Positions 15,347 through 59,518 of a stretch of 64,000 nt of DNA are shown here, piece by piece (within the stretch, counting starts at the first letter, position 1; each line of letters begins with the position of its first letter). A model generated the notes under the pieces. That model searched no databases. It was given only the letters and a program-made list of their open reading frames with translations, and was not told the origin of the DNA. Source of the stretch: Psococerastis gibbosa (taxonomy: Eukaryota > Arthropoda > Insecta > Psocodea > Psocidae); assembly GCA_963971405.1 (NCBI GenBank), contig OZ020490.1, forward strand, positions 12,820,874-12,884,873, written 5' to 3'. The position numbers were made by a program, and so were the translations under genes.

Positions 15347-16150
15347 ATGGCCACCAAATCGCCCAACAACATGGCGTCTATCACCATTTTCTCCATCTTT
15401 TTCGCCCTGCTCTCGGGCTCCTACGGTAAGTGACTTATGTATTTTATCAACAAACATACAAAATTTAAATCATATGTCTATGGCAGACATTGCTGAACGA
15501 AAATAGTTTGCCTACATACCAACATAATTAGGGCACAGAGGAACTGAAGAAGGAAGGAGGACGCAGGAGCTCAAACGTACCAAGAGCTGAAGAGGAAGTC
15601 GCAGGACTGAGAGAACTGGAGGATGATAGGCAGGGAGTTGCTGCCAACCAATTGTTGAGATTGTGACATCCAAAGAAGAGGTGCCAACATTTATCTGTGC
15701 AAACGGTAACGATGCGATACGTACAATATTTTATTTCCGTACTTGCATAGTAGTACTACTACCTAACGCAATAGTATTGAAACATAGAAACTCTTTGGTT
15801 TGATTGGCCTGTCAATAGTTACATGTCTCCAGTAAAAAAGAAAAATTGGGTTAGACATAAGAGAGAGAAGGGCCGAAAATTAAACCAATAGGGAAATAAA
15901 CAGAATTTTCTTTAAATAATTTATCTATTACACGAGTATAACAAATAAAATTGTCTCCTTTTTAACTTTGTAATATTTTCAATACATATTTGTAAATAAA
16001 TTATTCCTATCATAGTACCGTAAAATATATAAAACCTTAAATTAAAAAACACGAAAAGGTCGAAACCGCTCGTATTTTTAGTGTTTTATGTAATATTTAC
16101 AAAGTTATATTGTAATGTATTTAAATATATATAGGCCTACGAGTATACTG

Positions 16151-16228
<78 letters not shown>

Positions 16229-19200
16229 GTCGTTATTGAAGAAAAAAATGTAGATACAGCGATATTAGGGCTATGTCATATATATACAATACATATAAAA
16301 ACAACAGTAATGACATAACTAAAGTTTCAAGTTTCCCATTTTTAAACGAAAGAAGAAAGTACCTACTGTAGTAGTATTATTTTGAAAAAATGCTTTTTGT
16401 TACGACCTGTTGCAGATTAATGAACAAATAAGCATATACAGTATTGTTAAATTACATTGACGCTGTATTCTATATTTTATTTGTCACATTTCAACTGGTC
16501 CCACTGTTTAGTGGCAGCAACATGGCGCGATCGCGCGAAAACACAAATAGAGTTCTAACACGTTTAATGCGACATTTTCTTTAAAATTTTTTTTTTTTTT
16601 TTTTTTTCAGGCGCCAAATGTCCAGAAGTGGCCGAACCTTTAAAACACATCGTGTGCTACTATGAGGGTACAACCGCCATAGAAAATGTTAACTTATGCA
16701 ACTGCACACATCTAATTTTTAGCAACCTCACAACCATTTCCGAAGACTTCAGACTAACAGAACAACAAGGTAAGTTTTTTTTTTATGGTTTAAAAAGTCT
16801 TTAAAAATTATCGAGCGCTAAGCAAAATTGTTAATAGCTCAATATGGGTTAGAAATGTTTGGGAAATAATTATCATCCCCTACTCTCTGAACCTTTCAGT
16901 ACATTTTATTTATTTTAAAATTACGCTTTTCAGTTTATTTGTGCTCCACGACCAGGTTATGCGTACTTGTATGGATAGTCTAAGACTCGTATTTGTACTT
17001 GGTTAAGTCATGTTTTTGCGTCAATAGTGAGCTTGTCTCGACTTGTCCATTATCGCTTATAGCCGGTGTAGATTGGCATCGAGAACGTCTACCAGTTTGC
17101 CGATGGTAAAAAATCCACACGGAAACAATGCAAAATGTCCAAATTCCATGGGGTCGTTGGCATTAGACAAGAGACCAATTGGCTGCTATAAGGTTCAGGA
17201 AAAGCTATTTAAAAAGAAAAATACTACAATAGGTGGATAGCCAATACACTAATAGAGACACTAAAAAAGAACATTGAAAAATATAACTCTAACAATAAAC
17301 CTATTTAAGCCTTATTATTAAAACTCAGAATTATGTCTAGAGACAAAATTCGTAGAGCTACGATCGAGATTTCAGGTAAAATTTAATTTTGTACACGCGT
17401 GAGGGGGTTTTCTCCACGGTTAATTCTTACACAGTAGCTTCATCGTTACACCCGGTCTGGTTATATCGTTAAAGTATATTAACTAAATCACAAATCAGTT
17501 CTACAAGCATTACCATAATGATTGGACAGGTCTCAAAAATGATTGGCACTTGGTAGGTACAGGTGCAACCGCCGAAGGCGCCCATTCCACATATGAACAA
17601 CGTCAATGAACATTATGAAATTGAAGGACATTTCAATTTTACTCTATGCCATTGTTAAAATTGATCAATTATCAATTGATCATAGAGTAAACTCACAAAC
17701 AATCTAAAATTAAGAAATGGCGTCATGGGATATGACAAGTACAACTATTTTAATTGATTTCTCTAAAAAGAAAGCATTTCTGTATAAAAATTATAATAAG
17801 GTTTAAATAATAACAAACAAACAAATACAATTTCAAGAAACAAATGCAAACAAATTTTAAAAATTTGGCGCATACGCTTCAATTAAAAATTGTCAATTTT
17901 TGAAAAAAACATATGGAATGGCCCCCCTCAATGAGAAATTGAAATGTCCTTCAATTTCATAATTTTCATTGACGTTGTACGTATGTGGAATGGGCGCCGA
18001 AGTTGTAGCGCCTTAGTTAATGAACCTTAATAGACGGTACTATTTCGCAAGACCTGATAGATGAGATATGTATCTTCTAAACCGAAATTAGGTCTGCAAC
18101 CGGTCAAACGCCTTGAAAATTATATGTTGCTGATACTACAGGTTCAACTGACCCTGGCCATGGAGAATGTTAATTTATTGTATGTCAATGAACGCAAACT
18201 GATCATAGTTTCTTATCTAACTTTAATCATAAAACATCATTATCATATCCTACAATGTTCATATGCCAACAATATGCACCAAGCGGATCCACAGGGGTAA
18301 ATTCATATGTTAGCAATTTTTTTTTAAATTGAATAAAACTCAAATCATCAGCAAAAATAATTACCTTTTAACTTAGATGCAACTTGTGACCCCCCCCCCC
18401 CCCTAAATTTTCCGCTGGATCCGTCTTTGGCGGGGTTTCCACATACGTTAATGGTCAATGACAAATGTGGTATTGACGTTTTAGCAGACATTAGAGACAT
18501 ACTAAAAATGTCTGCTACCACGTCAAAACTATATTTACCATTTACCATTGACGAATGTGGAAACCACGCCTTTACTATGCACACTACCAAGTTTACTGAA
18601 GTTTATATTAGTTTGGCATTCTGCTTCTTCATCATCAACATCATCTGACTATGGCTGTGTACCGGTACTTATATGTACTTATGTATAACCATTAAACTTA
18701 ATAATAATAATTTCTTTTTTTTCTGAATTAATACACATTTTTTCCTTAAATAGGGCATCCCCAAGCCTAAGGGCGCGTGGGGAAACACCCAATGCCCTAC
18801 CTAATTTGGCCTACGCATATAAAAAAAAATGCACAAACAAAGAATCTAGGCCTAGTTATGGGAGTCTAGTTGGTATTTTATAAAATCAGTAACAAAATTT
18901 CCTATTGATTTTTTTTATCTAGTTTCAAGAGGGACACGTTTGCACTCATTGTAGAATTAAATAGCTTCATTTTTTCATAGCTCTTTGGCGGCGTTTCCAC
19001 ATACGTCAATGGTCAATGGTAAATATGGTTTTGACGTGGTAGCAGACATTTTTAGTATGTCTTTTTAGCCGGCCGCCATACCAAGTTGAATCCAGCGGAC
19101 CAGAGCAGGTTCAAAAAGCTGCAGATAAATTGGTCACCTCCGAACTAATCGTGTGACTTCACTGAGTTTCCCAAGTGGTTCGGAATCCACTATAATCAGG

Positions 19201-22200: not shown

Positions 22201-22917
22201 TTCCTTTTTAATCGCTAGATCTTGCTAGTATAAATAAATAAATATTGACTTTATTTGTTCTATTACTAAGCCAACCTAGCGGAGTTAGGGCTATAAAGCC
22301 CTCTCTTATAGGAAGACCCGGAACCGCCTGCTTTACATGCCCTCCAAAGCAGGGTCAGAAAATGCAGCAAGTGTGGGACTCGAACCAACAATCTTTCGGG
22401 TGAAAGTCGGAGTCTGTACCACTACGGTACATGTCCCGACTAGTAATGGGTAATGAGGTAAAAGAATTTGGGTCTAATTGGATTTTGAACTGTGGACGTC
22501 TCTTACTGCACCTGATTTCCTCAGTGGGTTAAGCTGCGAGTATTGGTAGACTACTTATTGTCTCCATGCTTGTTATTGCGTAGAAAATACCATGTTGCCA
22601 AGATTTTTCAATTTTTAAACCCCTCCGAGGCAGCCTACTCTCTCGTAGAGATTTCAAAAATTTGTAAACAAGAAATGGCTATGAATTTTGACAAAACTAA
22701 TTAATATCTCGTTCCACAGCCGCAAAGTTATGAAAATGGTCAGATGAATAATTCATAAAAAATGTAAGCCTTCGAACGAAATTTACATTTTCTCACGTGA
22801 AATATTATTTATCCTGAAACCCCCGTAATTGAACAATAAACCGGTATAATATATAGTACTTTTTTATTTTATAGGTCAGAAGTGGTTGGACCTTGTAGTT
22901 GGAAATGGTTGTATACC

Positions 22918-22963
<46 letters not shown>

Positions 22964-25900: not shown

Positions 25901-28900
25901 AATCTACTATTCACTAATTTAATGGTATTACACGATTCTGGAATCAACCTGACTGAAATTGGGTGTCCCTATAGTATAGGTAGTAGGTTAGGCCATCTCA
26001 TTTCAAGTCTTTCGCTTCACATACTGTACATACTCGGTTACTGGTACATGTATCATAGAGTAAATTTTTGTTGAAACATGAAATCAAAACCAAACAATCA
26101 AAACAAAAATAAAAAAATCGAAATCATACATAGATTACTCCAGAGTGTGCATGGTTACAATAATTAAGGCAGTTGAAGTGTAGGATTGTTCTTCTTGTTA
26201 ATTTTTAATTAGCCTTCAAAATTATGCAACCATAATCTCTCGTTGTAATAGTGCGATATAATGCTGAACGGTTTATTGGAGCATTATGTAGTAGGTGGAC
26301 CGGTCCCATAAAGGGAATAAGGTCAATATATCCGGGGGACAGTAAAAAATTCACATTTCCAGTCAAATCTTATTGCCATTATTGACGATGTGTTGTGCAA
26401 TTTTATAATCTTAACTGGATTAGATACCCATTAGCCTTGGCACATCACATCAACTGTCTAATTCAGTATCATACGATACTTAATAGATGTTCTTCTTCTA
26501 CCCAGCATCCCGTAGCTTAGAGGTTGTTTTGAATAAGTAAATTCTACATCCGTAGTAAGAAATATAATAATAATCTACAAAGCTTGAAAAATTATAATAA
26601 ATGAAAGAAAGAAAGAAAATTGTCTTTATTTTCCATGTGGGCGAATTTTGGGCCTTTCTGCCCACTCTTACAATTAACCCACAGATGAGACAGTGAATAT
26701 TGTACTAAATGTTAGTTTTGAACAGGACACTCCAAGTTCAATCTGTCTATCGTATTTCCTCAAAGAGAGGTTCGATAAAAACAAATAGTTTTCCCATAAA
26801 AGCCTTTCAATGACAAAGCTAAACTGATTTTTTTTTCAATTTTCTCCCGTTTTTGTTGTCATAGTTTCATCCATACACGAATCATAGTTCGACTCCTGTT
26901 TCTATTTTGAAGCCTTTAAACCTTTTTTTAAATGAAAACCCATGTTAAAAATTTAAATTTGTGAATCCTTCACTTCTTATTTCAAATCACTAACTATATT
27001 TTAAAATCCCTGAATATATTGTATTATCCGTGACTATTCCCGGACAAATATCGTCCCCAGACATTTTTCGGGACAGAGCTTGAAATCTCTGATTGTCCGC
27101 AGAGAACCGTAACCCTACCCAAGGAGAATGAAAGGGAAATTGAGCTGCGCTATGAAATATTTGAGCAAATACCTTGGGGTGGATGTGAGGACATCAATAC
27201 GCTGCAATACTATCTGCTACGTTCAATCTCAGCCAACAAATTGTCTTACAATGAAAGACATTATCGTACGCCTCTTTTCAATCATCTAATAAAGCCGTGT
27301 AATACCTGCCATTAGCAATGTTGCGATAGTGGCCACTCTATACTTAAATCCTTTTATGCCCTCAAACTACTACTGCAAAAGGCAGAGTTAGGTACTTAGC
27401 ATGGAAATTGTGAACTCTTCAATAAATTCGATTTCGACCAATCAGCGATGAGCATAACCTTTGGGTCCGGTCGAAATATTATAGTTATTCCTCAAAAATC
27501 TTTATAAATACTGGTTTTTCTAAGCCTACTGTAAAGTTACTAATTTTGTTAACATTGCAAAAAGCATTTTTATCAATATATTATATGGGGTTCTGGTCCG
27601 AGAAATTAATTAATTAACTCTCACCCCATGTAGTTTAAAAAAAAATTGGTACGTTTCCCATGAAAAAAGTTGTTTTCTAAGGCGATCCCAATTCTCAATA
27701 TGGTTTCGTAGCAATATAATAAAAGAGGTGCGGTCAGACATGGTCGTAAAGTGTTGTAATCATTTAAAGGTTTGTCGCTAAAATGTGGTACAATTTTACT
27801 GACAAGTAGTGGGCTGGCCGAGCCGTTCAAATGGGTCGTGATACGCGACAAAGGATCGATATTAATATTATGTCTTGTCACTAGACAGGTACAAGCACAG
27901 AACTATACTTTTAGTTTAGTAGGATAGCCCTGAAAATTATACAACACAACACATATTAGCTTAAGCTTAAGTTTGGACTGGTTGGCAGATAGCTGGATAG
28001 GTGAACTTTTCGAGCATCACAACGCTTTCTTTATACTAACGTATAAATAAGAAAGCAAAAGTTACTCTGTACATTAATTTGTCTATTGTACACATAGCTA
28101 CAGGAGTCCTCTATGCGGCTATGAGGCAAAGACAGCCGAGACAGGCATCATAAGTAGTATGCAGCTTAATTAATGAGGTGAGGAGAATGAAAAGAAGGGA
28201 TGGAGGTGCGGAGCCAAGTAAACAGAACGGTCATTGACCCGAATCCCCGCTCAGACACCTCAGTCCCTACCTACTCTGTGTCCTCGGACCTCACTGCTAT
28301 CACGGCCATATAATATTGTATTTAAATGCAATACACATCTATTTTTTCATTGATCTAGCCTAGCGTTAGCCTATATTTGTCTTGCCTTAAACATCTATTC
28401 AAGGGTGTCACCAGCTCTCGGACTAGGGGACAAGTGTATATCTCGGGGTAAGCCATTATCATTTGTAATCTTAGCTGACATACGGACCTAAGTAGAGATT
28501 TTTAATGCGTGTATAAAATCGCGGAATACTCATGAAAAAATGAAAACCAACAACGTTACTGAGCCTACTTCTTCTAAACATTTCTGGCATCTGTAGGATT
28601 TACTGGGAAAAACAATGGCCCTTGGCATTAACGGGGAAATCCCCTAGCCTCTGCAATTGATGTTGTTTCTAAAACTTAAATTTATTTATTTTTTCAGATG
28701 TCGAACTTTTGAAGAAATCAGCCCTAGACTCAAAGAATCTGAACTTACTGCTTTCACTGAACCTGAAAGCTAAGCAGAGTGCTTTGCTGCTGAAGTCTGA
28801 CTCAAAGAAAACCAATTTGCTCAACAGCGTCAGCTCGTTTCTTCAAACTTTTGGGTTCTCAGGTGTGGAATTGAATTTTGAATTCCAGCCTGAAGATTCC

Positions 28901-31900
28901 GTGAGGAAGGAGAAAGTTGTTTCTTTTGTGAAGGTAAGGGCAACTGAAAGCGTCAATTGAGAATATACAAGTTTAGGAATACATCTGGCAGCAGCCATAG
29001 CACAAACGCTAAAGAATAACTTAACTGCAAATAAGTGATAATTATCCAAAACCAACCCCAATGCATGTAAATTGGCTATTAAAGTGGAATAAGAATGAAT
29101 TTGCATATGCTAGATATCGGCGGGATGTCCTCAAAAACGTTGAAACTATGAGCTAGAAACTGACCTTCGCGAGTTGGGAGTCCGTACATGGTGGATCGTT
29201 GTAAAAAACCGAGATGACTGGAGAAATGTTGTCGAGCTCATCAAGGGCTGCAGAGCCAGAAGAAGAAAAAGAAGAAGAAGATATAGGCGGAACACTTTTT
29301 TGGGGTTCTTTCTATTAGGCCTAACATGACAAAACCGTTTGCTTTTGAGTGGGTTAGTTTTAATCCCGGACATAAACGGATTAAATAATTGAGATGTTCT
29401 TTTCCGTTGGTGCTACGCCTGCTGCTGATAAAAAGCAACAACTAGAGGAGTATGCTTTCACTGCTCATCGGTCCCAGTTGTATTTCTGTACTGGGATATT
29501 AAAATTGATTGATTGAAGGGGTTATTTTGAATCAGCTACATTAGATTCCCAAGTAAATTAAGTATAAATTAAATGGCTAACACTACGGACCACTTTTCCA
29601 AATGATGACAATTGTAGTGATGTGTAACTAATCTTCGGCGTGAGCAAGTCTCAGATTGTGGATGAGGTGTAAATGTGATAGCAGACTTCCGTAATTGATG
29701 GTATAGGTGTTTTTTAACGAACAAAAATTAATGTTCATTTTTTCAGGATTTGGGACAAGCTCTTGACCATCATCGAAGCAAACGCGATGGGTACAGCGTC
29801 AATGAAGAACAAACAGATGATATAACGACGGGGCGGTATACCACAGAGAAATTAGAAAAGACAAAGAAGCGTTTGATTAAAAAGAAAAAATCAAGAATTT
29901 CCCGAGAAGACAAGAATGTGGATTTCTACGACGAGGAGGAACCATTGTCGGTTGTTGAGGAATATCTGGACGGAGAGCCTACTCTGAAAAGGACGAAGAG
30001 GAGAGAGTTAGCTGAGGAAGAGGACAAAGAAACTGGGAAGAATTTGATCCTGCTGAGGTTGTCAATCATTCCAGAGATCCTAGTCAAGAAGTATGACTTG
30101 AAGGCCCTGTCTAAGTAAGTTTCAGAACAATAATGATAGCGCTGCTGGTGATTCATTAATTACAGAAGGTAGTTTCAGGTCTCAAATCTGTGTTTAATCT
30201 GAGGCTGAAGAAGTCCATAAGTAAAATAAGGGTGATACGTTATATCATGTTTTTTTTTTCTCGAAAATTCCGTCCGACAAACAGTTATAATTCAAATAAT
30301 AGCTGAAAGTATGGCTAAAAATAATACAAAAGAGACTTAGTAAAGTTATTAAGATTATTTATTGCTATTGTAATTAGAAGAGGTTATTAGGTAGATAAGT
30401 AAGGAGTATATTATTAAGTTTCAAGTTACTAAGAAGAGGTATTGTAGTTAAAAGAGGTTATTAGGAATCGTTCATTGAATTGTATGCATGCGATTAACCT
30501 TTAAATATCGTATTTTCCTCCTTCTTTATTTATAATGTATTATCCTCTTATTTTTAGGTACATTGACTACTTCACTGTGCCAACTCATTTGATCACGGAT
30601 CAATCTGAAGATCACTTAACTTTCCATCCAAGTCGCCTTATGGGATTGTCTGATATTCTGAATACTGTAAGTTCTAGTGAAATTAAAAGGTTTCACGTTA
30701 TTTTGTTAACGCATGCTCACAGCATATTTCATTCTCAATTCTGCTTTTAGGCGACAATTCCACCGGCGAATTTACTTCATTTGTGATTTGAGATATTTTG
30801 TTTGTTTTGTTTTAAGAAGACTATTATGTAGATACTTAACTTATCTCAGTCTCTGCCATATTATAACTTAATTTATAGTAGATAAGTTAAGTATCTACAT
30901 AATAGTCTTCACAAATGAAGTAAATTCGCGGTGGAATTGCCGCCTTAACGACTATTGCATTCAGGGGCGTAAAGTTAGGGGGGGGGGGCACGGTCCAACT
31001 TGCCCCCCCCCCCCCCCCCGCCTCAACCAGTGTCAGACGTGGTTCATACTTCATGGTCCCCTTTGCAGCAATATGGATATAGGCATTCCTTTTTTAGCTT
31101 TGTAAAATCTACAGCTATACTTTACTACTATTAAAATGCGTAAAACTATTTTGCTCTTATATTTTCAATTTTTCCTTATCCTGTCTGATGACGTCATAAG
31201 GTCTACTTAGTTTTGCCTCCGCCATCATTCTAAAACTTTACGCCTCTGATTGCATTATTAAGGATTTTATGCAGAATATATTCACTTATCGGATCAAATT
31301 TCAGGACTCAATTTTAGACCTGCTGACTGGACTGGGCGCGCCGAAATCAAGAATCATAATATCTATGCCCGGAATGGTTTTAAAATACCAACTGAAAGAC
31401 CCTAGTAAAAACACCGCTAGATCCCGGACTGTTGGTGAGCCACAAATGATCACCCAATCAAAGGCAAGTATATACCGTATTGTACCCTGCATACATTGGA
31501 AAGGAATAAAGTAGGCAGGCTGCAAATAATTGTGTACAATGTAAGAGGTAATAATGAAGCCTAACGTTCTATTTTCGCTTTCCAATTTGTGTAAGCATAA
31601 GGAAAGCTTCGTGATGGTCTAAATTTTCAATTCCAAGATTTCAAAGGGTTTACACGTTTTGAGGTCCCAGGAACCAAAAAAGGTGTTTTTATGAAATTTC
31701 TGTCTGTCTGTCTGTTCATATTATTTTATTGTACACAGACTCATACCCAGGATTTCTTTATGGTCACTCTTTTCAGGTATATTCTAGGTCTGTGTACATT
31801 TTCACAGGATTGTATTACTTTTCTAATAAATAATCACGATTTTTTCTGTGCTTTCATGTACCTAATACTAATTCATTATTTCAGTAACTTATTTTATTAT

Positions 31901-34900
31901 ACTGTAGGAAATATTTCATGATATTTCACATAATTTTTTCTCAAATTTGGGGGATTCATGGGTCCCTTGGCTCCCCCTGGATTGTACATAATGCTATTCA
32001 GTACAGACTTCAACAACTTAAATATGTAGCAATAGGTTCTATTCAAACGCGTAGCTTAAGACATTTATTATTGCAGATGTGTTCTCTTTTAAAAGAAGGA
32101 GGCTGGACTGTCGAAAGGGACGAAGATCTCACCGCACCATACGCCTTTTCCAAATCTACTTGGCTTGCATTTGAAGATGAAATTAGTGCGAATATTAAGG
32201 TAAATATATATTAGAATAGTTATGGTATAGGTCAACATTAGTAACCAGTAGTCGTTTAATTGCCACGTGTGAGGGTCAAGGCATGGCATTTAAAAAAAGA
32301 TCACGATCATTGCTATTATAGTTATTACGAAGTTATCCACAGGTGAAGTCCAGTTGGTCTATGCGAAGGAAAGTCAAGGTTCAGAGTCAGAATTAGAAGA
32401 ATGTATATTGATCAGTAGAAAGACAAAGGCCCTTTCGGCTTTGGCCGATCAGGTGTAGGGAGATTCCGCAGGCCCTGCTTTTTCTCTACGATACCTACGC
32501 TATGCACATATGCAATAAAAAATAAAAAATACTTCATTATTTTCCCGACCACAACATCAACACACAAAACACTCTTGTGTATCAATCAATGACGACTATG
32601 AACTTTTACTTATGAAATTATTTTAAATTTGACTGGACGTCATCTTGAAATCGTTGATTTATTGTCGTAAAAAGTGTCGATCACCATTATTGCAGATAAT
32701 AATACGGACTTTCAGTCAAATTTTAATTCATTCCTCTGAGACCAATATTAACTGAGATATGAGTTAAATAAGGTTTCAATTGGTCGCCATCTTGTAACTC
32801 AATAGTGAATCTAGATGGTTCATGAACTCGATCAAGACATTTGTGTGATCAATTTTTGTGCCAAGTTTCATCAAAATTAGATAATATTTACGGAAGTTAG
32901 AGTGTTTCCTAAAATCGATGTGAAGAAATTTTCGTAAAGTCGAACATTGGTCGCCATCTCAATAGGTAGACGAATCTCCGTAATACCAACATACGATCCA
33001 GGTTCGTTCGAGATAAAAGGCGTACTTTTCTGCCACCCGACCTCATTGAGGTGGTACCTGAAAGTGGTACGCATTTTGCAGACCACGGCATCGCAAATAA
33101 TTATAGCAATGGTCAAGAGAGAAAATCCTCTACCAATTCTCAGCTCTAAACTCTCAATAGATTGTCGTACTTCGCCATTTTTTCGTTCCTCTATACATTA
33201 CGTTTGATAAATTACAAATGAAAATTTCAGGGCAAATACGTAATTCTTCGGGAGTTGGCTGGTGCTGCCATCTTCCCCATTGACTCTGACACTTCAAACG
33301 AAGCCTGTGCTCACCCTCAGGGCGGCCGCCTTGCTGGAGCTCTTCAGGCAAACTTTGGTGGATTGGCCAGAAAACCAAGACAGGTTGTCCTCCAAAGCCT
33401 TCAGGAACAGATACATGACACAGCCTTTTACAACCAAGAAGGTAGGGGTTAACATGCATGGCACAAAATTATCCATAGATTAATTTATGGTGAAATTTAC
33501 AAAATATTTGTTACATATATATTAACAAATGGCAACCGCGTCTTTTTGATTAACCGAAATTAGAGGATATGGAAAAAACTGGGCTTGGCGGGATTCGAAC
33601 CCACGATCTACGCCTAACCGGGGCGTCGTCTTAACCGCTGGCCCACAAGCCCCGACAAGTTCAGTATATACCAAATCTTCCACTTATTCTCTAATTGACA
33701 TGATTCGTGTTGCTAGACAGGTTAACTCAACTACACAACTATCTAACCGAACAGGTCTGTGAGCTTACTTAATTGCATATAGGTAATGCTTTATTCAATA
33801 TATTGTAGTATTACATGGTATATATATAACACTGTCATTAAATTAACTTTGGTTGAAGAGGTAACCTCCTCGTTATAACCAAAATTAGGGGATATGGAAA
33901 AAACTGGGCTTGTCGCGATTTGAACCCACGATCTACGCCTAACCGGGGCGTCGTCTTAACCGCCCCGACAGTTTTTTTCCATATCCTCTAATTTCGGTTA
34001 TAACGAGGAGGTTACCTCTACAACCAAAGTTAATTTAATGACAGTGTTATATATACCATATAATACTACAATATATCTTTTTGATTAATTAATTTCTCGG
34101 TCTAAACCCCAGCCGGCAGCCGCAAAGGTAGAAAAGAAGTAGTAGTAGGTAGTATGATTGGACACAGTCCCAGGCCACGGTGTGGGCCCATAGGACAGGG
34201 GACCTCCTGATTATAGTGGATTCCGAACCACTTGGGAAACACAGCGAAGTCACACGATTAGTTCGGAGGTGGCCAGGACAAGCCCTACCATGTTTCCCTA
34301 CCGGCAATGTGCACACTACCAAGTTATCTGCATCTTTGAACCTGCTCTGGTCCGCTAGATTCAACTTGGTAAGGCGGCCGGCTTAGAAAAGAAGTAAAAA
34401 TCATAAAAAATATATGCTTACTCAATACGCAGACTATTCAGCCAACTTGATAGCCATATAGCCTACCTCAAAATCTGAAACCGAAAATGATTTTGCAAGG
34501 CCAAAAAAAAAACTCCGTGAAGAAAAGAAGTTTAATTATAGGCCTGACGTTTAATTGCAGCTGGAGTTCATCTGTCCGAGTATCGAATTGTCCGCGTGGT
34601 CGATCATTCTGGAGCCGTCCATGTCATCCGTAAGAACACAAAAACCGAATTTGAGTGTTCTCGTCAAGGCTACTTCAGCCATCCCTTAGGATGCAACAAG
34701 TAAGTCAAAACCCCATACCTAACTCTCTTCCATATAATTCTCCCTTTTGGCACCTTCCATTATTGCTTTGAATCACTAGTACCACTGGGATTGGCCTCGC
34801 GACAGTGGAGAGATAGTTTCCCTCTCAGCACTCTGCCTACGTTGGGGTTATCTGTTAGGGCCCTCCCTTAGCCTTTGGGTCAATACCCTTCCCTCAAGGC

Positions 34901-37900
34901 AGAGGGGTGGCTGGCCTCTTGCTCATCTGCCTCCCCCGCCGTTGTGTTTTTAGTCACCATCTCCCGCCGTTGGATTCATTGGCATTCGGCTTGCACTTAT
35001 TTAAAGACGGTGCTGATGGTCTTGTTCCGGTAGCTTTTTCGCCGTTTCGTGTTTTTATTTATTTATTTTTAAAAAAATAATACTTAGGTTCCGGCCACCA
35101 CCTCCACTACCGCCTCATCCTTTCTCAAACGGGCTTGGGACCGTCTTCGGCGGAGTTCCCTTTTGACATTTGCCATACAAATGGATGTGCATGTGGCCCC
35201 ATGTCCTCATTAATTTATAAAGAATCACTGTAAGTCTTATAGCGGATATGCTCCTCATAACGTAATTGATTATTTTATATACCCAATCGGCGACTTTTTT
35301 CACTATAACAAATACCCGATTCAAAAACTGCCGCATAAGCTCCCATGGACTATAGCACATTTTGAATTTAATTTTTCACTATTTGTACCAAATTTTTGGT
35401 GTTTCTTACTCAAAACTGTTATTTTTTTTAATTTTGATGATATTGAATGGGATTCCTAGCACATTTTTGATATCATCTCTTTAATCTTTAAGTAAATATT
35501 TTTATTCAACTTTATATAGATAGATATAGATAGTGACTATATGGAAGTTGAATCAGGCGGGTTCGACAATTAATGGTGAACTATATTGGGGAAAGAGAAC
35601 ATAATATGGTGAGCTGCATGAAGTACTTTATCAGTCGTATTGTGTATAGTAACCGCCCTTAACATGTTTCCAGATTTTACCGGTGCGTCAAGTTCAATCA
35701 ATATACCGACGACTATACTGTCTTCGAATATGATTGCCCAGCTGGGTTAGCTTTTGACGAAAGATGGGAAGTCTGCGTATGGCCTGGTTCCCTGCCCCAT
35801 GGAGCCCCTTGCACCGGATCCTCGGAAATCGCACCTGTACCTAGGGCGCATTACGCGTGTCCTAATGTCGAAGGTAAGTTATACCTACTCATGCAAAATG
35901 GTTCAGGTCCTAATAAAATTAAGAATGTGGAACTTAATATATTTCGTACCTTTTCTTCACAGGATATTACGCTGATCCAGAAAACTGCCGCTGGTTTTTT
36001 GCCTGTCTCGATCATGCCCGCGATGGTGTCACTCCTTTGACTGCCTACGAGTTCCGCTGCCCATTTGGGCTCGTCTTCGACGAAAGCTCACTTTCCTGTG
36101 AATGGCCATGGAAGGTTGGAGGCTGTGGGGCCCGAGGAGCTGCAGGCTATGTCGTCGCAAAAGCTGGAGGGTCATCCACATACTTGGGCACTGCTTCCGT
36201 CGCAACCGGTGGAGCTTCTTATGCAACCGTACCTGATTATGTAATATCAGGAGGTAGAATTGCAAACAAAGGCAGTGGCGTTATTCTGAACCAAAATGTA
36301 GTCGGTGTGCCTGGTATTGCTACCGTAGAGAAGCCTGCATTAGTGGGATCATTGGGATCCAACGGGGGAATCGCTAATGGATTCGGCGCTATAGGGCTTG
36401 GTTCACTAACTCCTTCCTCATTAGTAGTTGAGGATCAGGGTTCAAAGCACAGAGCAGAAGGTGGTGCATTCTTTTCATCCACGCCAACATCTTTCATTGT
36501 GGACAATGGTGGATCGCACCATAGGGCAGAAGGCGCTTCTTTGTATTCGTCAGCTCCTTCTTCATTTTTAGTTGAAGACGGAGGTTCAAAACATAGGGCT
36601 GAAGGCGCCGCTCTCTATTCTTCGAATCCTTCCTCTATCTTAGTAGAAAATGGCGGTGCTCAACACAGAGGAGAAGGGGGCGCTTTTTACGCATCTACTC
36701 CATCTTCATTCATAGTTGGTGATGGCGGTTCCAAGCATAGAGCAGAAGGTGCCGCTTTCTATTCATCCACGCCTTCCTCTATTCTAGTCGAAAATGGCGG
36801 TAACCAACACAGAGGAGAAGGGGGCGCTTTTTACGCATCTACTCCATCTTCATTCATAGTTGATGATGGCGGTTCCAAGCATAGAGCAGAAGGTGCCGCT
36901 TTCTATTCATCCACGCCTTCCTCTATTCTAGTCGAAAATGGCGGTAACCAACATAGAGGAGAAGGGGGTGCATTCTACTCTTCTACTCCTTCATCATTCT
37001 TGGTTGAGGACGGTGGTTCTAAGCATAGAGGGGAGGGTGCCGCTTTCTATTCTTCAACCCCATCAACTTACTTGGTTGAAGACGGTGGGTCCAAATATAG
37101 AGGAGAAGGTGCTGCCTTCCATTATTCCACTCCATCATCTATCTTGGCTCAAGACGGTGGTGCAAGCCATAGAGGATCAGGAGCTGTTTTCGTCTCATCC
37201 ACTCCGTCAACGTTGCTAGTAGGAGAGGGTGGGCTCCATAATGTTGAAGGAAGTTCAGTTAATTTAGCCGGTGGATTAAGATCCCCAGGATATTATGCTG
37301 CATCTGCTCCTTCCTTGGCAGTGGGAAATGGTGGTGTTTCAAAATACAAAACAGTTTACCAACAGTCGGCTCCTTCGATCCCTACTGGCTTCAATGGTAT
37401 CAGTTATGGGCAACAATCGTTGGGTCAAGTGAACGGAAATCTTCAAGGATTTTCTGTGAACTCAAATCCGTACCTGGAGGCTCTAAGAGGTCGATATGGG
37501 GAAAAATCCGGTGTTGCTTCGTCCGTATCTGTCACGGGTATTGGGGGCTACGCTTACGATAAACCTGCTGTTCAGTTGCAGCTCCCCAAGCAAAACCTAT
37601 ATGGTCAAAAATTAGCGGCAGTGTCTACTTATAACTCAGGAGAGGGATATACTTACAACAAACCCTCTGTTCAATTACAACTTCCAACCCAATCAGTGAA
37701 TGAGCATATTGGTTACACCTATGAGAAACCTCTTGTGGCATTTGAAACGCCAGCTTTTGCAACCACACGAAACAAGGCTACTTATGAACAAAACGTTCAA
37801 CCAGCTATTTCTCTTCAGCCAGTTGCGCAATTGGTTCAGCCTGTTTCATACCAGCAAAATATTGCGGTTACAACAGCAAAACCAATTGAATTGGTCAAAC

Positions 37901-40900
37901 CTGTAGTCTATCAACGACCTGCTATCTCTTTAAAACCTACATTTTATCAGCAAGAAATTGTCACTCCTCGCCCGGTTGTTATTCAAAAACAATATGTAAC
38001 CCCAAAACCAATTATAATTCAACAAGCAGTTGTTACACCTAAGCCTATTGTATACCAACAAGAAATTTCTCCTGTTGTACAAGACAAGACGGTGATCTAT
38101 CAACGACCTGCAGTGTCTTTTAGGCCGACATTTTATCAGAAAGAAATTGTTACTCCACGCCCTGTCATACTACAACAGCAATATGTTACTCCGAAACCAT
38201 TCATTGTGCAACAAGAAGTTTTGGCACCAAAACCCATTGTTTATCAACAAGAAATTTCCCCCATAGTTACACCGAAACCAGTGGTTTTTGCTCAAACCGT
38301 CGTCACTCAGCGTCCTCTTGTGGCCCAACCTGTCCTCTATCAGCCTAAAATAGCGTCACCTAAGCCAGTGATTTATGAACAGCGCCAGCAAATTGTTACA
38401 CCTCGACCTGTAGCATATGAGCAAAAAGAAATTGTTTACAATCAGAATGTAGTATCACCTTCACCTATACCGATCCAACAAGTATTCCAGTATCCGACGG
38501 TCCACCAACAAAAAATTGTGCAAACCGTAACACCGCAACCATTTATAGTCCAGAAAGAAATTGCACAGCCGATAGTTACACCAAGACCTGCCGTATATAA
38601 ACAAAGTGTAGTAACAGCTCGACCTGTTGTGTACCAACAGCAATATTTACAACCTATTGTATCGCAAAAGACCGCTGAAGTTGTCCAACCTATTGTAACG
38701 CCTGAGCCTGTTGTGTATGAACAGAGATACCAATTACCAACAGTAACAACAAAACCAATTGCCTATCAACAAGAAATCGTACAACCAATTGTAACACCTC
38801 GGCCTGTTGTGTACCAACAGCACCATTTGCAACCTATTGTATCCCAAAAGACCGCTGAAGTTGTCCAACCTATTGTAACGCCTAAGCCTGTTGTGTATGA
38901 ACAGAGATACCAATTGCCAACAGTAACAACAAAACCAATTGCCTACCAACAAGAAATTGTGCAACCAATTGTAACACCTCGGCCTGTTGTGTACCAACAG
39001 CAGCATAAGTCAGCCGTAGTTACAGCTCAGCCGGTTGTATATCAACAGCAATATTTGCAACCTATTGTATCCCAAAAGACCGCTGAAATTGTTCAACCTA
39101 CCGTAACGCCTAAGCATGTTGTGTATGAACAGAGATACCAATTACCAACAGTAACAACAAAACCAATCATCTACCAACAAGAAATCGTGCAATCAATTGT
39201 AACACCTCGGCCTAAGCATAAGTCAGCCGTAGTTACAGCTCAGCCGGTTGTATATCAACAGCAATATTTGCAACCTACTGTATCCCAAAAGACCGCTGAA
39301 ATTGTTCAACCTATCGTAACGCCTAAGCCAATTGTGTATGAACAGAAATACCAATTGCCAACAGTCACTGCAAAACCAATCGTATACCAACAAGAAATCG
39401 TGCAACCAATTGTAACACCAAAGCCTGTTGTGTACCAACAGCAGTATAGGCCAACAGTAGTTACAGCTGGCCAAGTTGAATACCAGCAGCAACTTGTGCA
39501 GCCAATTGTTACGGAAAAAACAGTTGAAATTGTTCAACCGGTAGTGACTTCCAAGCCAGTAGTATACAAACAGCAATTCGTACAGCAGCAGTCAACAATT
39601 TATAAACAGACGCCAGTTGTGGCTCCTAAGCGTGTTGTTTACCAACAGCAATATCTTAAGGAAACACCAGTTGTTTATAAGCAACAAGCTGTCACACCAC
39701 AACCTGTCGTAGTGCAGCAATACGTAACACCCCAACCAGCAATATATCAACAAGAAATAGTGACGCCTAGACCAGTCGTTTATAGCCAAGAAGTAACGCC
39801 CAAAATCGCAATTTACGAAAGACGGCCTCCATCAACTCCAAAAGCTGTTCAGTATCAAGAAGTGTTTGGAATTAAAACTGTCCAACCCATAACTCCAATC
39901 ATCAAATATGAACAACCACAGTTTACTGTCACTCAGAGGCCTACAGCCAAAACATATGTAACGCCCTCACCAATTGCAGTTCAAGAGCAAACAAGTGGCT
40001 ACGTTTATGAAAAACCTCAGCAAATATTTCAGGAAGTAGTAACACCAAAACCCATCATTTACCAGCAGGAAATAATTCCACCTAAGCAACAAACAGTCAT
40101 TTACCAGAAGCAGCAAGAATTCATTGAAGTTCCCAAGCAACCAATTGTTTACGCTCAAAAAATAAAGAAAGTGCAACCAGTGAGTTACCCCAAACCAGTT
40201 TTCTATCAACAACAAACTTACGTAACTCCTAAACCAATTATAGTTCAACAAACTACACCCGCAACAGTCTTGTACCAACAAGAATATGTTCAGCCTCAAA
40301 TTACTTTGAAACGACAACGCACTAAAACAGTTAGACCCCTGATTTATCAACAAGAAACTCCTCGACCTTCTATAGTTGTTGAACCAGTTGCCCCTTATGT
40401 GCAGGAAACTTACAAACTGCAACCTGAAGTACAATACCAGACAAATGAGTACTTGCCACCAGTGGTACAAAAATCAAAACTTAAACTTAGAGGGAAAATA
40501 GAAACCACACCAAGGACTGTTTATGCTGAAAGCTACGAAGCTAATCCCGGTATTGCCGTCCTCCAGAAGGAGATCATTCAGCCTTTGGGCATTGTCACCA
40601 CTCAAGTCCCTATAGTTACTCAGTATAGGCAACAGTACAAACCAACCCCAATCGTCACATCGGAAGCGCCCATTTTCGTACAAGAGAATAGACAGACAGA
40701 CGGATATCATGCGATAAATTATAACGTACCGGTAACAGAAGGAAGCATATCCACACTAGCCAACCTTGAAATTCAGAGAGTTAAGCAATTTGACGTAACT
40801 ACAGCACGACCTGCTCAGCAATTCTATACCACAGGGCAGTTACAAGGAACCAATTATGAGCTTAATAATAACATCAATATTCCACCACCCTCTGATGAAT

Positions 40901-42864
40901 ACATTCTAAAAATACAATCTTCAACAGCAGAGCCAGTAACATCCACTAGATATACGGTCAAACCAAGAACAAGAGTCCGGGTAAGGCCAGTAACCACGAC
41001 TGAAGCCAGTAGAGAATACCTTCCACCATCGGAAGTGTCTGTGGCAGTATCGAAACCCTGCGAAGGAGACAAGAGCACTGGTAAAGCGACAATAGTATCT
41101 ATTGGTCAAGTTGATAAGGATGAAGTAGATGAGAAAAACTTAGATGTCATTCTAGACAAATATTCTGGGAAATACGGAGAACTCTCTGAAGATGATCAGA
41201 ACAAATTTGTCACTAAAGTAATTAAAGGGAATGGCCGTGGAACTATTAATGTTGGAAAAGAGCCAGAAGTTTCAACCGTTGGATACGAAATAACATCATC
41301 GAGGGCTAGATCACGAGGTCGTGCTGGTTCCAGAAAATTTGCTTCTACAACGACCAGCACTGATGGATATGAGACAGGAATTTCCTCAACAACTGAACAA
41401 TCTGAGGACGACAACACAGATACAGCAGATATTTCTTTGGCAACATTAGATTTGAAGAATTTGAAGGTGAAAAAGAATAAAAAGACAATTATTGTTGTAT
41501 CTCAAGTGAGCGATGCAAATCCCATACTTATTGGAAAACTTGCAGGACAGTGCAGTTGTGAATCGAACAAGGTAAGTCTAAGGAAGGGCAGTGGTCGCCG
41601 AGGCAATGCGAGACGTCTTCCAGAAAAAGGAAACGACAGTGGGGGAGACGATGACCAAGGCGGTAATCTTGACAATCCTGACAACAGTTATGACAATGGA
41701 AAAGGAAATCCAAGAGGACGGGGAAGCAAGAACAGGCGTCCTAATGACGATGAAGACAATGACGGTTATGAAGATGACTTTGGCAACGGCGGCAGCAATA
41801 GTGACACAAATTCCAATGAAAAACCAAGAGCACGAGATGGGTCCCAAGGTCGGGGATATGCTAATGGTACGGGTGGAAAGGGTCGGCGTCCCAATAACAG
41901 TGATAATGAGAACGGAATTGGAGCTTCAAGGTCTAACGCGAAACTTCCCAGCAATAGGCGCCAACGACCAGGTGCTAAATCACGTCCTGAAGACTCACAA
42001 ACCGGGGATGATGATGGCAACAACGGAGATGCTTTATATGCTCCTGAGATCAACGCTGCTTTAGGTTACAATGAAGACAGACCATTATTTGAACCTGCGT
42101 TGCAAAACATTGTAGGCAATGAAGCCACAACTCCGAACAACGACTTACCTGTCTACATTGGTTCGTATGGTGGTAGGAAATTCTCCAATAGGAAACAGCC
42201 GGCATATTTGGATAACATAGCCATTGAAGCTGGACCCGGAAGTCCTGGACAAATAAATGTGCAGATTTATGATGATAACGGCGTCCCTGTATCTGTGACA
42301 AGCAGTACAACAATCATTCCTGAAGTAACTCCTTCCATTTTGTTACCAATTGTGCCATCTAGCAATAGAAAAATCATCAGTGATATCCCTGATCAACTTC
42401 CTATTCGTCCTTCGGGTCGTCGTATCCCCAGTAGAAGCAAGGCAAGAAAACCATTCGTTGATGACACCAATCCCTTATTCTCTCCCATTCCTGCCGACGA
42501 GATAGCAAGCACTATTGATTATTCCAACGTTCGTCCACGGGACGGAGCAAACGACATCCCTAACGAATCCTCTGGTGAACCTTCTAGAAAGATCGCGGGC
42601 GCTGCTTTTGATAGATACGGCCCTGGTGGCTGGAGAAGCGCGGACGAAACGCTTCAAGGTAGCGTTGACTGTAAGAGACCCGGTCTTTTCCGTCATCCAA
42701 AATACTGCAATAAATTCTATGCTTGTAACTATGATTCTTGGAAGAAGAGGTACACCCTTCATGTTTTCAACTGTCCCGTTCACTTAGCATATGATAGTAA
42801 TATAGGTGCTTGTAACTGGCCTTCTAAGGGCCCTGCTTGTGCAGATGATAACTTACTGGTGTGA
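15347..42864 (+). CDS. Giant secreted chitinase-like (GH18, degraded active site) / CBM14 / repetitive matrix protein, 11 coding exons
   Basis: Coding exons: 15347-15425, 16611-16769, 28698-28933, 29747-30114, 30558-30666, 31305-31463, 32077-32199, 33231-33441, 34561-34699, 35674-35873, 35963-42864. Joined they give 8,685 nt, an exact multiple of three, about 2,894 residues, with compatible phases at every junction. Residues 1-27 form a hydrophobic signal peptide (start ATG has A at -3 and G at +4). Residues ~28-440 match GH18 chitinase blocks: an HIVCYYEG strand, a CTHLIF strand, FSGVELNFEF where active enzymes have the FDGxDxDWE motif, YIDYFTVPTH in place of MTYD, and GAAIFPIDSD near the end. 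Two catalytic Asp positions read Glu and Asn, so it is probably not a chitinase; chitin or glycan binding is more likely. CBM14 domains with six cysteines lie at ~514-574, ~590-649 and ~2831-2887. Between them lie 24-residue repeats (~740-1020), VTPKP/VYQQ repeats (~1203-2100) and an Arg/Gly/Asp-rich stretch (~2464-2613). Intron 6 uses a GC donor. Likely an extracellular matrix protein; I do not recognise a named orthologue. Confidence 0.88.
16153..16227 (+). repeat. (AAT)n microsatellite in intron 1
   Basis: About 25 uninterrupted AAT/ATA units. The poly-Asn reading frame across it is an artefact. Confidence 0.95.
17571..18002. mobile_element. Fold-back MITE, ~430 bp, in intron 2
   Basis: Ends are inverted (CGGCGCCCATTCCACATA-type), followed by inverted AAATTGAAGGACATTTCAA blocks. 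The interior matches part of 6590-6715 (CATAGAGTAAA, GGCGTCATGGGATAT). Confidence 0.75.
18425..18573. mobile_element. Fold-back MITE, ~149 bp
   Basis: Arms TTTGGCGGGGTTTCCACATACG and its inverse GTGGAAACCACGCC, with GTAGCAGACAT-type inner repeats. Family member of 18981-19340 and 23742-24019. Confidence 0.8.
18981..19340. mobile_element. Fold-back MITE interrupted by a SINE
   Basis: Arms begin TCTTTGGCGGCGTTTCCACA and end GTGGAAACCCCGCCTTTG. The SINE 19065-19267 sits in the loop between AGCAGACATT and AATGTCTGCT. Confidence 0.85.
19065..19267 (+). mobile_element. SINE family 1, short form, with 12-bp target duplication
   Basis: Starts TTAGCCGGCCGCCATACCAAG and ends in (ACT)n. It is bounded by the perfect 12-bp direct repeat TAGTATGTCTTT (19053-19064, 19268-19279), which shows insertion by retrotransposition. 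The target is the loop of a fold-back element. Confidence 0.9.
19978..20280 (-). mobile_element. Reverse-transcriptase tail fragment interrupted by a tRNA-type SINE piece
   Basis: The flanks match the 24061-24415 and 50062-50300 tails on the - strand. The middle (about 20005-20145) instead matches the SINE body also present at 22225-22445 (CCAACCTAGCGGAGTTAGGG, then CTTTACATGCCCTCC). The SINE therefore landed in an older retrotransposon copy. Confidence 0.55.
20806..20976. mobile_element. hAT-type MITE, 171 bp, in intron 2
   Basis: Inverted ends CAAGGCCGTAGCCA and TGGCTACGGCCTTG are perfect over 14 bp, with perfect octamer TGCCAACG at 20798-20805 and 20977-20984. Related right ends occur near 9753, 23062, 56861 and 62187. 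Confidence 0.92.
20985..21375 (+). mobile_element. SINE family 1, long form, in intron 2
   Basis: Starts GCCTTACCATGTTGAATCC and continues through GGTTCGGAATCCACTATAATC to AAAGCAGAAATGCTGAAAG and a CAA-repeat tail at 21360-21372. It abuts the hAT MITE ending at 20976-20984. Confidence 0.8.
21585..21773. repeat. Inverted duplication, ~75-bp arms
   Basis: CCAGTAGAATCC...TTCCAAACATTTCGTCAACAGC is mirrored by GCTGTTGACGAAACGCTTGGAA...ATTCTACTGG. One-arm relatives lie at 46480-46580 and 55700-55760. Confidence 0.75.
22225..22445 (-). mobile_element. tRNA-derived SINE (family 2), in intron 2
   Basis: The - strand begins GTCGGGACATGTACCGTAGTGG and includes GGTTCGAGTCC, a polymerase III box B match, then the body GGAGGGCATGTAAAGCAGGC and a (AATA)n-like tail at 22228-22245. 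Related copies: the head at 46266-46340, the body at 20005-20145 and 45300-45345, and a longer version at 55935-56185. Confidence 0.7.
22921..22961 (+). repeat. Poly-A tract, about 41 bp, in intron 2
   Basis: An uninterrupted A run. No clear retrotransposon is attached on its 5' side. Confidence 0.9.
23206..23380. mobile_element. hAT-type MITE, 175 bp, in intron 2
   Basis: Starts TAGGGACGGATCC and ends CATCCGTCCATG. The perfect octamer CTGACAAG flanks it (23198-23205, 23381-23388). The interior has a G run after the left end and a C run before the right end. Same family as 48113-48289, 57497-57657 and a copy at about 165-320. Confidence 0.9.
23742..24019. mobile_element. Nested palindromes, ~278 bp, in intron 2
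   Basis: The outer arms carry TATTCCACTGGTCAATATTC and its inverse at 23991-24012. The inner arms (about 23803-23940) are a near-perfect hairpin through ACACCGACGTCAATA and GACGTGGTAGCAGACAT. One fold-back element appears to sit within another. Confidence 0.8.
24061..24415 (-). mobile_element. Reverse-transcriptase tail fragment, in intron 2
   Basis: The - strand encodes NAEVLRRMDTVAELLLTVLKR, then KLTYFGHMMR, then the decayed GRRRTSWL...RAAVSKV block. Frame changes show it is dead. Confidence 0.75.
24450..24702. mobile_element. MITE with TA target sites, 253 bp
   Basis: Inverted ends ACTGGCCGGTCTTATGCCA and TGGCATAAGACCGGCCAAC, extended by GTGAACCAAGCG. TA flanks lie at 24448-24449 and 24703-24704, as for Tc1/mariner-like elements. 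Confidence 0.8.
29163..29282 (+). mobile_element. Retrotransposon 3' end with (GAA)n tail, in intron 3
   Basis: Second clear copy of the family seen at 13760-13890, 0.5 kb before exon 4 of the chitinase-like gene. It ends in AGAAGAAGAAGAT. Confidence 0.55.
29747..30114 (+). other. Exon 4: highly charged insertion within the GH18 domain
   Basis: This exon continues from the degraded catalytic strand and returns to a GH18-like strand near its end (NLILLRLSII). In between lies about 95 residues rich in Lys, Arg, Glu and Asp, with several di- and multibasic clusters (SKRD, LIKKKKS, KRTKRRE). In ordinary GH18 enzymes this interval is a compact loop region. The basic clusters resemble furin-type cleavage sites, so the GH18 part could be clipped in the secretory pathway; that is inference. 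Confidence 0.6.
30749..30946. mobile_element. Fold-back MITE, ~198 bp, in intron 5
   Basis: Arms AGGCGACAATTCCACC...AAATGAAGTAAATTCGC and inner GATAAGTTAAGTATCTAC are perfectly or nearly perfectly inverted. It begins 82 bp after exon 5. Confidence 0.8.
30962..31248. mobile_element. hAT-type MITE, 287 bp, in intron 5
   Basis: Begins CAGGGGCGTAAAG and ends CTTTACGCCTCTG. The perfect 8-bp duplication ATTGCATT lies at 30954-30961 and 31249-31256. It contains a long G then C run near its left end and no ORF. Its right end is 56 bp from exon 6. Confidence 0.9.
31305..32199 (+). other. Exons 6 and 7 with a GC-AG intron (31464-32076)
   Basis: Exon 6 ends AAG at 31461-31463 followed by GCAAGT, the typical strong context of a GC donor. 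Exon 7 begins after TTGCAG at 32077. The join is phase 0 and keeps the GH18-like reading frame open. The nearest alternative GT (in TACCGTATT, 31475-31483) would put exon 7 in another frame that reaches a stop before the exon ends. The GC donor is therefore the only reading I find that keeps the chain intact. Confidence 0.75.
31577..31720 (+). mobile_element. Truncated (TCTG)n-element copy in intron 6
   Basis: Has the left arm (CTTTCCAATTTG...AAGGAAAGCTTCGTGATGGTC) through the first TCTG repeats, then unrelated sequence. Confidence 0.7.
33581..33652 (-). tRNA. tRNA-like 72-nt sequence, probable SINE head or tRNA pseudogene
   Basis: On the - strand the ends GGGCTTG and CAAGCCC form a perfect 7-bp acceptor stem. 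ACGCC/GGCGT gives a 5-bp anticodon stem with loop CCGGTTA (anticodon would be GGT, Thr), and GTGGG TTCGAAT CCCGC forms the T arm. The D arm does not pair and the universal U33 is C. A partial second copy sits in the palindrome at 33797-34078. It lies in intron 8 of the chitinase-like gene. A functional tRNA is unlikely. Confidence 0.45.
33797..34078. repeat. Long palindrome (~108-bp arms) with a tRNA-like tip
   Basis: The left arm, about 33797-33905, and the right arm, about 33969-34078, are inverted copies with few mismatches (key blocks AACACTGTCATTAAATTAAC and GAGGTAACCTCCTCGTTATAACC). The 63-bp spacer is the 3' half of the tRNA-like unit at 33581-33652. It would fold into a long hairpin in the gene's pre-mRNA. 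Confidence 0.85.
34142..34383 (-). mobile_element. SINE family 1, short form, with 13-bp target duplication, in intron 8
   Basis: The - strand starts CCGGCCGCCTTACCAAG and ends in (ACT)n. It is flanked by the perfect direct repeat TAGAAAAGAAGTA (34129-34141 and 34384-34396). Confidence 0.9.
34561..36130 (+). other. Tandem CBM14 (peritrophin-A) chitin-binding domains across exons 9-11
   Basis: Two six-cysteine domains follow the GH18 region. The first spaces its cysteines 11, 5, 16, 12 and 11 residues apart, the second 12, 5, 17, 12 and 8. Both contain the aromatic positions and CPxGLxFD motif of CBM14 modules that bind chitin in peritrophic matrix and cuticle proteins. An intron interrupts each domain after its second cysteine or just past its first. 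The second finishes in exon 11 at the CEWPW motif, about 36097-36127, before the repeats begin. Confidence 0.9.
36400..37235 (+). repeat. Twelve tandem 72-bp (24-residue) coding repeats
   Basis: Each unit reads approximately STPSSFLVEDGGSKHRAEGA plus an aromatic pair. Units alternate between an EDGGSKHRAEGAAFY type and an ENGGNQHRGEGGAFY type, giving a 48-residue higher-order unit. The copies starting at 36691 and 36835 (144 bp apart) are nearly identical in DNA, which points to recent duplication or gene conversion. The last units lose the His-Arg-x-Glu-Gly core. Confidence 0.95.
37790..40480 (+). repeat. Val-Thr-Pro-Lys-Pro / Tyr-Gln-Gln low-complexity coding repeats
   Basis: About 900 residues made of roughly 10-12-residue units of the form IVTPKPVVYQQ, rich in Gln, Val, Pro, Thr and Tyr and almost free of Cys and Trp. 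Within 38640-39460 a longer unit (start marked by CAACCTATTGTATCCCAAAAG-like sequence at 38650, 38830, 39058 and 39271) is repeated with spacings of 180, 228 and 213 bp. The composition suggests an extended, cross-linkable (Tyr/Gln) or O-glycosylated polymer; the role is inferred. Confidence 0.93.
41571..42060 (+). other. Arg/Gly/Asp/Asn-rich charged segment of the giant protein
   Basis: After a short Cys motif (CSCESNK) the protein changes to about 150 residues dominated by Arg-Gly, Asp-Asp, Asn-Asp and Gly, with both signs of charge mixed. It differs sharply from the Gln/Tyr repeats before it. A sequence identical to a strong 5' splice site (AAG then GTAAGT) sits at its start, 41569-41577. 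The ORF stays open through it, so it is called coding. Confidence 0.7.
42664..42840 (+). other. C-terminal CBM14 chitin-binding domain
   Basis: Six cysteines spaced 11, 5, 15, 12 and 8 residues apart, with FRHPKYCNKFYAC and CNWPSKGPAC matching the CBM14 pattern. It ends seven residues before the stop codon TGA at 42862-42864. With the two N-terminal CBM14 domains it gives the long repetitive region chitin anchors at both ends. Confidence 0.92.
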
Positions 42865-58972: not shown

Positions 58973-59481
58973 CAGTTGTCCCTCGATAATCCGACACTTT
59001 GAAATCCGGCGCACGTCGTAGTCCTACGCGCCACCAGCTGGCTTTTCACAGCATTTTACGTCTTAAGCCAACATTGTACAGTAGACGCGACTTACATTAA
59101 TTAAATATTTGCAACTGTTTACAGTACTGTAGTGTGTTTTAACATCGTCCTAGCTATTCGATGGCTAGGTGGTAACGTGCTTGCACTTGTGCCAGTCTTT
59201 ACACGCCATGCAATCGGAGACGTGTCGTACTCATCATGGGTAATAACCTACAGAGGCGACTGAAAAGGTCAACCGGATACATTCATTAAATTATTTGTAT
59301 GCGATTTATCCTTTTTTTAAAAAAATATAAAAAAAATGATTATTAATACTGTATAAAAAATTACGATTATCGAATATATCGATCCAACGCATTACGGAGA
59401 AGCGTTTTTCGATAATCCGACATTTTCGCTAATCCAACACCACGTTGGTCCCGTACCTGATTATCGAGGGATAACTTGCTG
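58973..59481. mobile_element. Tigger/pogo-type MITE, 509 bp, carrying a tRNA-like SINE
   Basis: Ends CAGTTGTCCCTCGATAATCC and GATTATCGAGGGATAACTTGCTG are imperfect inverted repeats of the Tigger/pogo type. TA dinucleotides flank both ends (58971-58972 and 59482-59483). It ends 36 bp before the LRR coding exon. Confidence 0.85.
59158..59310 (+). mobile_element. tRNA-like SINE family 3, inside the Tigger-type MITE
   Basis: GATGGCTAGGTGGTAACGTG contains a strong box A match (TGGCTAGGTGG). Reverse-oriented copies with the same order lie at 55065-55222 and, truncated, at 14245-14340. Confidence 0.65.
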
Positions 59482-59518
59482 TAGTCGAAAATTCACAATG
59501 TACTTTTATTGTTGCAGG

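Follow-up and report, generated by a model that had tools for sequence, protein, structure and literature searches.

The stretch of DNA considered here comprises 64,000 nucleotides of the genome of Psococerastis gibbosa (GenBank assembly GCA_963971405.1, contig OZ020490.1, positions 12,820,874 to 12,884,873 of the forward strand); it is called the window, and positions are counted from its first letter. Between 15347 and 42864 of its forward strand lies a gene for a chitinase-like protein of unusual length. Eleven exons can be spliced in frame to give 8,685 nucleotides, which code for 2,894 amino acids and end in a single terminal stop. The original prediction, made from the letters alone, had proposed this very assembly, and it was reproduced exactly. 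The phases match at all ten junctions; nine introns are of the GT-AG type, and one, with its donor after 31463, is of the GC-AG type. For the presumably secreted protein a mass of ~319 kDa is predicted.

Exon 1 (15347..15425) contains the start codon and a hydrophobic stretch resembling a signal peptide, and it ends at a GT donor. The mean hydropathy of this stretch is up to 2.71 over 11 residues, and it is by hydropathy alone that the signal peptide is judged. The GH18 domain begins in exon 2 (16611..16769) with HIVCYYEG..CTHLIF and continues through the degraded regions I and II in exon 3 (28698..28933). Exon 4 (29747..30114) adds a GH18 helix, a charged insert and the strand LILLRLS, exon 5 (30558..30666) the remnant of region III. 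Exon 6 (31305..31463), which carries the GC donor, and exon 7 (32077..32199) are GH18 throughout, and the domain ends with region IV in exon 8 (33231..33441). The 5' junctions of exons 4, 6 and 7 coincide in position and phase with Cht6 introns, as detailed below. A linker and the first part of a CBM14 domain (first Cys at 34656) follow in exon 9 (34561..34699); exon 10 (35674..35873) completes this domain (last Cys to 35812) and starts a second one (first Cys at 35858). Exon 11 (35963..42864; 6,902 nucleotides) holds the remainder of the second CBM14 domain, the repeat blocks, a charged block, the third CBM14 domain and the stop; that the repeats, the charged block and the final CBM14 domain would share a single exon had been foreseen. 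Its open frame extends over 2,308 codons, whereas 200 mononucleotide shuffles produced none longer than 200 codons.

Homology supports eight of the ten junctions: six within the GH18 domain (exons 2/3 to 7/8, by alignment with Ym1) and two, 9/10 and 10/11, within CBM14 domains. Support for junction 1/2 comes from the signal-peptide-like stretch. Intron 8, which is 1.1 kb long, contains a tRNA-Thr (GGT) at 33580-33652 on the reverse strand, as detected by ARAGORN and by the Rfam tRNA model. It sits in a stretch (~33540-34090) that by eye resembles an inverted repeat with a second tRNA-like copy; it may be a mobile element derived from a tRNA and not a genuine tRNA gene.

Joined as described, residues 28-482 match Pfam Glyco_hydro_18 with 118.1 bits (cut-off 29.6; E 8.4e-34), and CBM14 is scored three times, so that the Pfam check suggested along with the original prediction turned out in its favour. 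A genome-wide scan exon by exon yielded no GH18 row at E 0.001 or better within the window; of the GH18 exons, numbers 6 and 8 were also tried singly, and neither matched a Pfam family. As the unjoined exons score nothing significant, the GH18 domain appears once the exons are joined in the proposed way. Its closest match among solved structures is Ym1 (E 6.9e-19).

The state of the active site was judged by the four conserved GH18 regions listed in PMC8002649. Region I has lost its GGW. Region II, FDGxDLDWEYP in the reference, reads FSGVELNFEFQ and keeps four of ten defined positions, among them the proton-donor Glu; the catalytic motif is SxxExNxE where DxxDxDxE is expected, and the Asp two residues ahead of the catalytic Glu is replaced by Asn. 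SGVELNFEF in place of DGxDxDWEY had been noticed before and is confirmed as quoted, the fold itself now being assigned by the joined Pfam score. In region III, MxYDxxG is represented by PTHLITD in the Ym1 alignment, and the Tyr-Asp pair is gone. Region IV (GxxxWxxDxD) reads GAAIFPIDSD and retains three of four defined positions. The signatures of active GH18 enzymes, FDGxDLDWEYP and MxYDxxG, are thus both absent. Asn instead of the last Asp, together with loss of the Tyr-Asp pair, is expected to abolish GH18 cleavage. Judged by its lost motifs, the domain is probably catalytically dead.

A peculiarity of the domain is the charged insert in exon 4 (29768..30028, forward strand; residues 166-252), which comprises 87 residues where Ym1 has roughly ten. 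The only two R-X-K/R-R (furin-like) motifs of the entire protein fall into it, near its ends (residues 168-171 and 240-243). In 20,000 shuffles of the insert, at least two such motifs occurred in 1.3%, and a placement with one motif close to either end in 0.015%, figures that have to be read with the insert limits and end windows having been set after the sites were seen.

The two CBM14 domains predicted behind the GH18 domain and the one predicted at the terminus are borne out. All three contain six cysteines, which span residues 514-574, 590-649 and 2831-2887, respectively. The first two are closely spaced after the GH18 domain, and each is interrupted by an intron. The third (42670..42840, forward strand) ends seven residues short of the C-terminus.

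A spacer of ~2,170 residues (656-2825) separates the tandem CBM14 domains from the terminal one; it had been correctly recognized at the outset as containing two repeat systems and an Arg/Gly/Asp-rich block. Block A (36409..37209, forward strand) is a Gly/Ser-rich array of about 11 copies of a unit of 72 nucleotides or 24 amino acids (DGGSKHRAEGAAFYSSTPSSILVE). Block B (37780..40479, forward strand, limits set by eye) is made of Gln/Val/Pro-rich repeats of the VTPKPVVYQQ type, with repeat rows at 37907-38258 and 38611-39539; residues 1061-2210, which include it, contain 15.7% Gln, 15.0% Val and 12.2% Pro. The charged block (41566..42039, forward strand, limits again set by eye) is rich in Arg, Gly, Asp and Asn and belongs to a wider segment (residues 2211-2825). 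Elsewhere in the genome block A has no match at E <= 0.1 and block B none at E <= 0.01. That the repeats might be common to other genes of this genome was considered and rejected, since none were found at these thresholds.

Single-sequence AlphaFold2 folded only one of the two repeats. Block A was modelled with regular beta strands (predicted template modelling score, pTM, 0.63; predicted local distance difference test, pLDDT, 65.6), whereas a 281-residue part of block B yielded no structure (pTM 0.12, pLDDT 34.5). This is still no proof for block A. AlphaFold2 has been described as prone to false beta-solenoids on repeat sequences, and a comparison of the block A model with PDB folds gave no match at E <= 0.001; the strand model is therefore weak evidence.

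The entire layout is known from group X of the insect chitinases, also called Cht3, for which later papers cite Tetreau et al. 2015 as the primary description. Group X proteins are described as beginning with a signal peptide and a single GH18 domain; two chitin-binding domains follow close to each other, and a very long stretch separates them from a third one near the end (PMC8002649, PMC9933517). The structure has been termed unique and highly conserved, restricted to arthropods and seemingly lost in flies (PMC9933517); a midge study likewise finds flies without group X, a moth study places a Cht3 in the group, and a crustacean review differs from PMC9933517 in calling it unique to insects. 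The gene in the window has each of these elements: a GH18 domain that follows a signal-peptide-like stretch at the N-terminus, the CBM14 pair, the long region and the C-terminal CBM14 domain. It thus resembles in layout the Cht3 proteins of whitefly (BtCht3), psyllid and planthopper (NlCht3) and the aphid ApCht8, and in BtCht3, too, all four GH18 regions are poorly conserved (PMC8002649). The original prediction had considered the architecture unusual. That it is not, and the claim of novelty fails, because this arrangement of GH18, CBM14 and a long spacer has been described for group X (PMC8002649, PMC9933517). The gene is largely ordinary: not a new kind of system, but what looks like a clean and complete example of a described family.

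Other chitinase-like proteins come less close. Group V, the IDGFs, resembles the gene in that the GH18 fold is present but its active site altered, as do Ym1/CHI3L3 and CHI3L1. IDGFs, however, are described as having a single GH18 domain and lacking chitin-binding domains (PMC9933517), and here there are three CBM14 domains. The gene differs also from the mammalian lectins of this type, which are not known to carry chitin-binding modules or repeat spacers.

We therefore read the gene as a single-copy group X chitinase-like gene (Cht3), whose product would be a non-catalytic chitin tether in the cuticle, and put the probability of this reading at about 0.79, membership being assigned by layout. 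The species table of PMC9933517 lists one group X gene per genome. A genome search with a query of 633 residues returned 45 rows, the first 11 of which were the gene's own exons (the eleventh being the terminal CBM14 domain), and the other 34 were weak. As the best match outside the gene had an E value of only 7.5e-6, there is no second copy at this sensitivity. For the same reason, the idea of a recent copy of another chitinase of this genome was rejected. What may be particular to this member are a spacer poor in N-glycosylation sequons, a 24-residue repeat block beside a Gln/Val/Pro block and a charged GH18 insert with two furin-like sites.

How such a protein might work can be sketched as follows. 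Once secreted, it would grip chitin at both ends of the spacer, by the CBM14 pair on the N-terminal side and by the single CBM14 domain at the C-terminus. It would thereby tie chitin fibres or laminae together, or hold them apart, in newly made cuticle. The GH18 domain would no longer cut chitin and would serve at most as a lectin for chitin oligomers. A passive tether in a chitin matrix is the most likely role, as it fits secretion, grips at two ends and an inactive domain. Of the two functions initially suggested, the chitin-network linker is the one that stands; for a sensor, nothing was found in particular support.

That cuticle is likelier than the gut lining as the site of action is suggested by data of another species, a psyllid. 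In Table 5 of PMC9933517, psyllid Cht3 averages 85 transcripts per million (TPM) in the six nymph rows, while it is nearly absent from gut or midgut in all four rows (0.02, 0.03, 0.35 and 1.46 TPM). Over the 33 rows of these data it tracks Cht6 and Cht7 (log correlations of 0.94 with Cht6 and 0.93 with Cht7; Spearman coefficients of 0.75 and 0.79); with Cht5 the log correlation is 0.84 and the Spearman coefficient 0.76. The tethering role and the cuticle as its site are in this sense plausible deductions.

Several observations weigh against the group X reading as a whole or in part. Membership was deduced from layout, by setting it beside published descriptions. Moreover, of the four best matches that the genome search gave outside the gene, three are exons of a different chitinase (with E values from 7.5e-6 to 6.1e-5; for the following chitinase exon the value is 1.5e-3). 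They belong to a separate Cht6-like gene at C19:18766000-18786000 with intact KTMLAIGGW and FDGLDLDWEY, one CBM14 domain, Thr/Ser-rich open frames and a further CBM14 domain. Only the GH18 exons of this C19 gene were spliced, and the far CBM14 domain is assigned to it presumptively; its layout is that of hemipteran Cht6 in PMC9933517. With the insert left out, junctions 3/4, 5/6 and 6/7 of the window gene share alignment columns and phase 0 with three of the four C19 GH18 introns; with the insert kept (MAFFT, BLAST), the alignment matches junctions 5/6 and 6/7 only. These findings would suit a diverged duplicate of Cht6 (group VI) that gained a second N-terminal CBM14 domain, lost its activity and came to resemble group X by convergence, and they moved 0.01 of probability from the group X reading to this one. 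Yet the GH18 domains are only 26% identical over 224 columns, and the introns in common may be widespread among GH18 genes of insects. The first CBM14 domain of the C19 gene lies in one open frame, whereas introns split both members of the pair in the window gene, and in the literature the tandem pair marks group X and not group VI (PMC8002649, PMC9933517). Group VI is defined by one chitin-binding domain between the GH18 domain and a Ser/Thr-rich stretch, with ~25% Ser+Thr in that of psyllid Cht6 (PMC9933517); the gene in the window has two CBM14 domains and a spacer with 15%. The three intron positions apart, it thus differs from the C19 gene, which has intact motifs, a single CBM14 domain before the stretch and Ser/Thr-rich exons. 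We consider a Cht6 duplicate unlikely. On the present reading the Cht6 of this genome is a gene other than that in the window, to which it may nevertheless be distantly related.

A further weak point is junction 8/9, which ties the GH18 domain to the CBM14 pair and for which no spanning homology was found. This gap, and the tRNA-like element in intron 8, would be in line with two adjacent genes, of which the first, with exons 1-8, would code for a short pseudo-chitinase and the second, with exons 9-11, for a large repeat protein with CBM14 domains. The join has indirect support, however: exon 9 is preceded by just five open codons without an in-frame ATG, a simple scan of intron 8 for a signal-like first exon found none, and reading through the donor of exon 8 leads to a stop after three residues. 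The joined layout, moreover, equals that of single group X proteins (PMC8002649, PMC9933517); a split into two genes is very improbable. The loss of catalysis, too, may be questioned. The domain keeps the proton-donor Glu of DxxDxDxE and, in region IV, three of four defined residues; with this Glu in place it may have weak activity. The protein could then be a chitinase of low activity which its CBM14 domains and spacer keep in the matrix. Against this stand the change of the Asp two residues before the Glu to Asn and the loss of Tyr-Asp in region III, since that Asp and the Tyr-Asp pair are needed for GH18 catalysis, and we hold a working enzyme to be quite doubtful. The spacer, too, may depart from expectation. 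With four N-glycosylation sequons and 15.3% Ser+Thr in its 2,170 residues it does not appear mucin-like; numerous potential glycosylation sites are given for the intervening region of group X (PMC9933517), a feature that is doubtful here. Finally, an essential role is not indicated: in the RNA interference work cited in PMC9933517, only Cht5, Cht7 and two Cht10 genes affected psyllid molting, and Cht3 was not among them.

A more elaborate version of the tether deserves mention, although we give it little chance. A proprotein convertase might cut at RSKR and RTKR and remove most of the charged insert, which would leave the GH18 domain as a two-chain chitin lectin. A stiff beta-solenoid of block A and a disordered spring of block B, gripped by chitin-binding domains at both ends, would then make the protein a retired chitinase that sets the lamina spacing and elasticity of the cuticle.

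Some other genes were met in passing. On C3, two apparently intron-free, full-length GH18 domains (G000:C3:4087967-4089043 and C3:4222589-4223665; 330.8 and 327.7 bits) lie ~134 kb apart on opposite strands; they are possibly horizontally acquired or retro-copied chitinases, and whitefly Cht8 and Cht9, which are single-exon genes (PMC8002649), offer themselves for comparison. At G000:C2:50462626-50466882, 20 CBM14 matches of like score, one every 216 bases, occupy an open frame of 1,447 codons, which represents a giant chitin-binding repeat protein. Within the window, an open frame of 462 codons at 52722-54110 (forward strand) is Thr/Asn/Pro-rich and contains repeats of the type PTNYNNFPVGFSPATP; its beginning looks signal-like by eye, and this mucin-like neighbour has no Pfam match. 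Further downstream, at 59357-60322 (forward strand), a leucine-rich repeat protein is encoded (LRR_8, E 2.1e-24), its start likewise signal-like by eye.

To return to the group X gene itself, its family seems to have been little studied, and the descriptions compared here assign it no function. The gene model, which is complete and combines a degraded active site with chitin grips at two ends, supports the view that group X proteins are structural tethers rather than enzymes.
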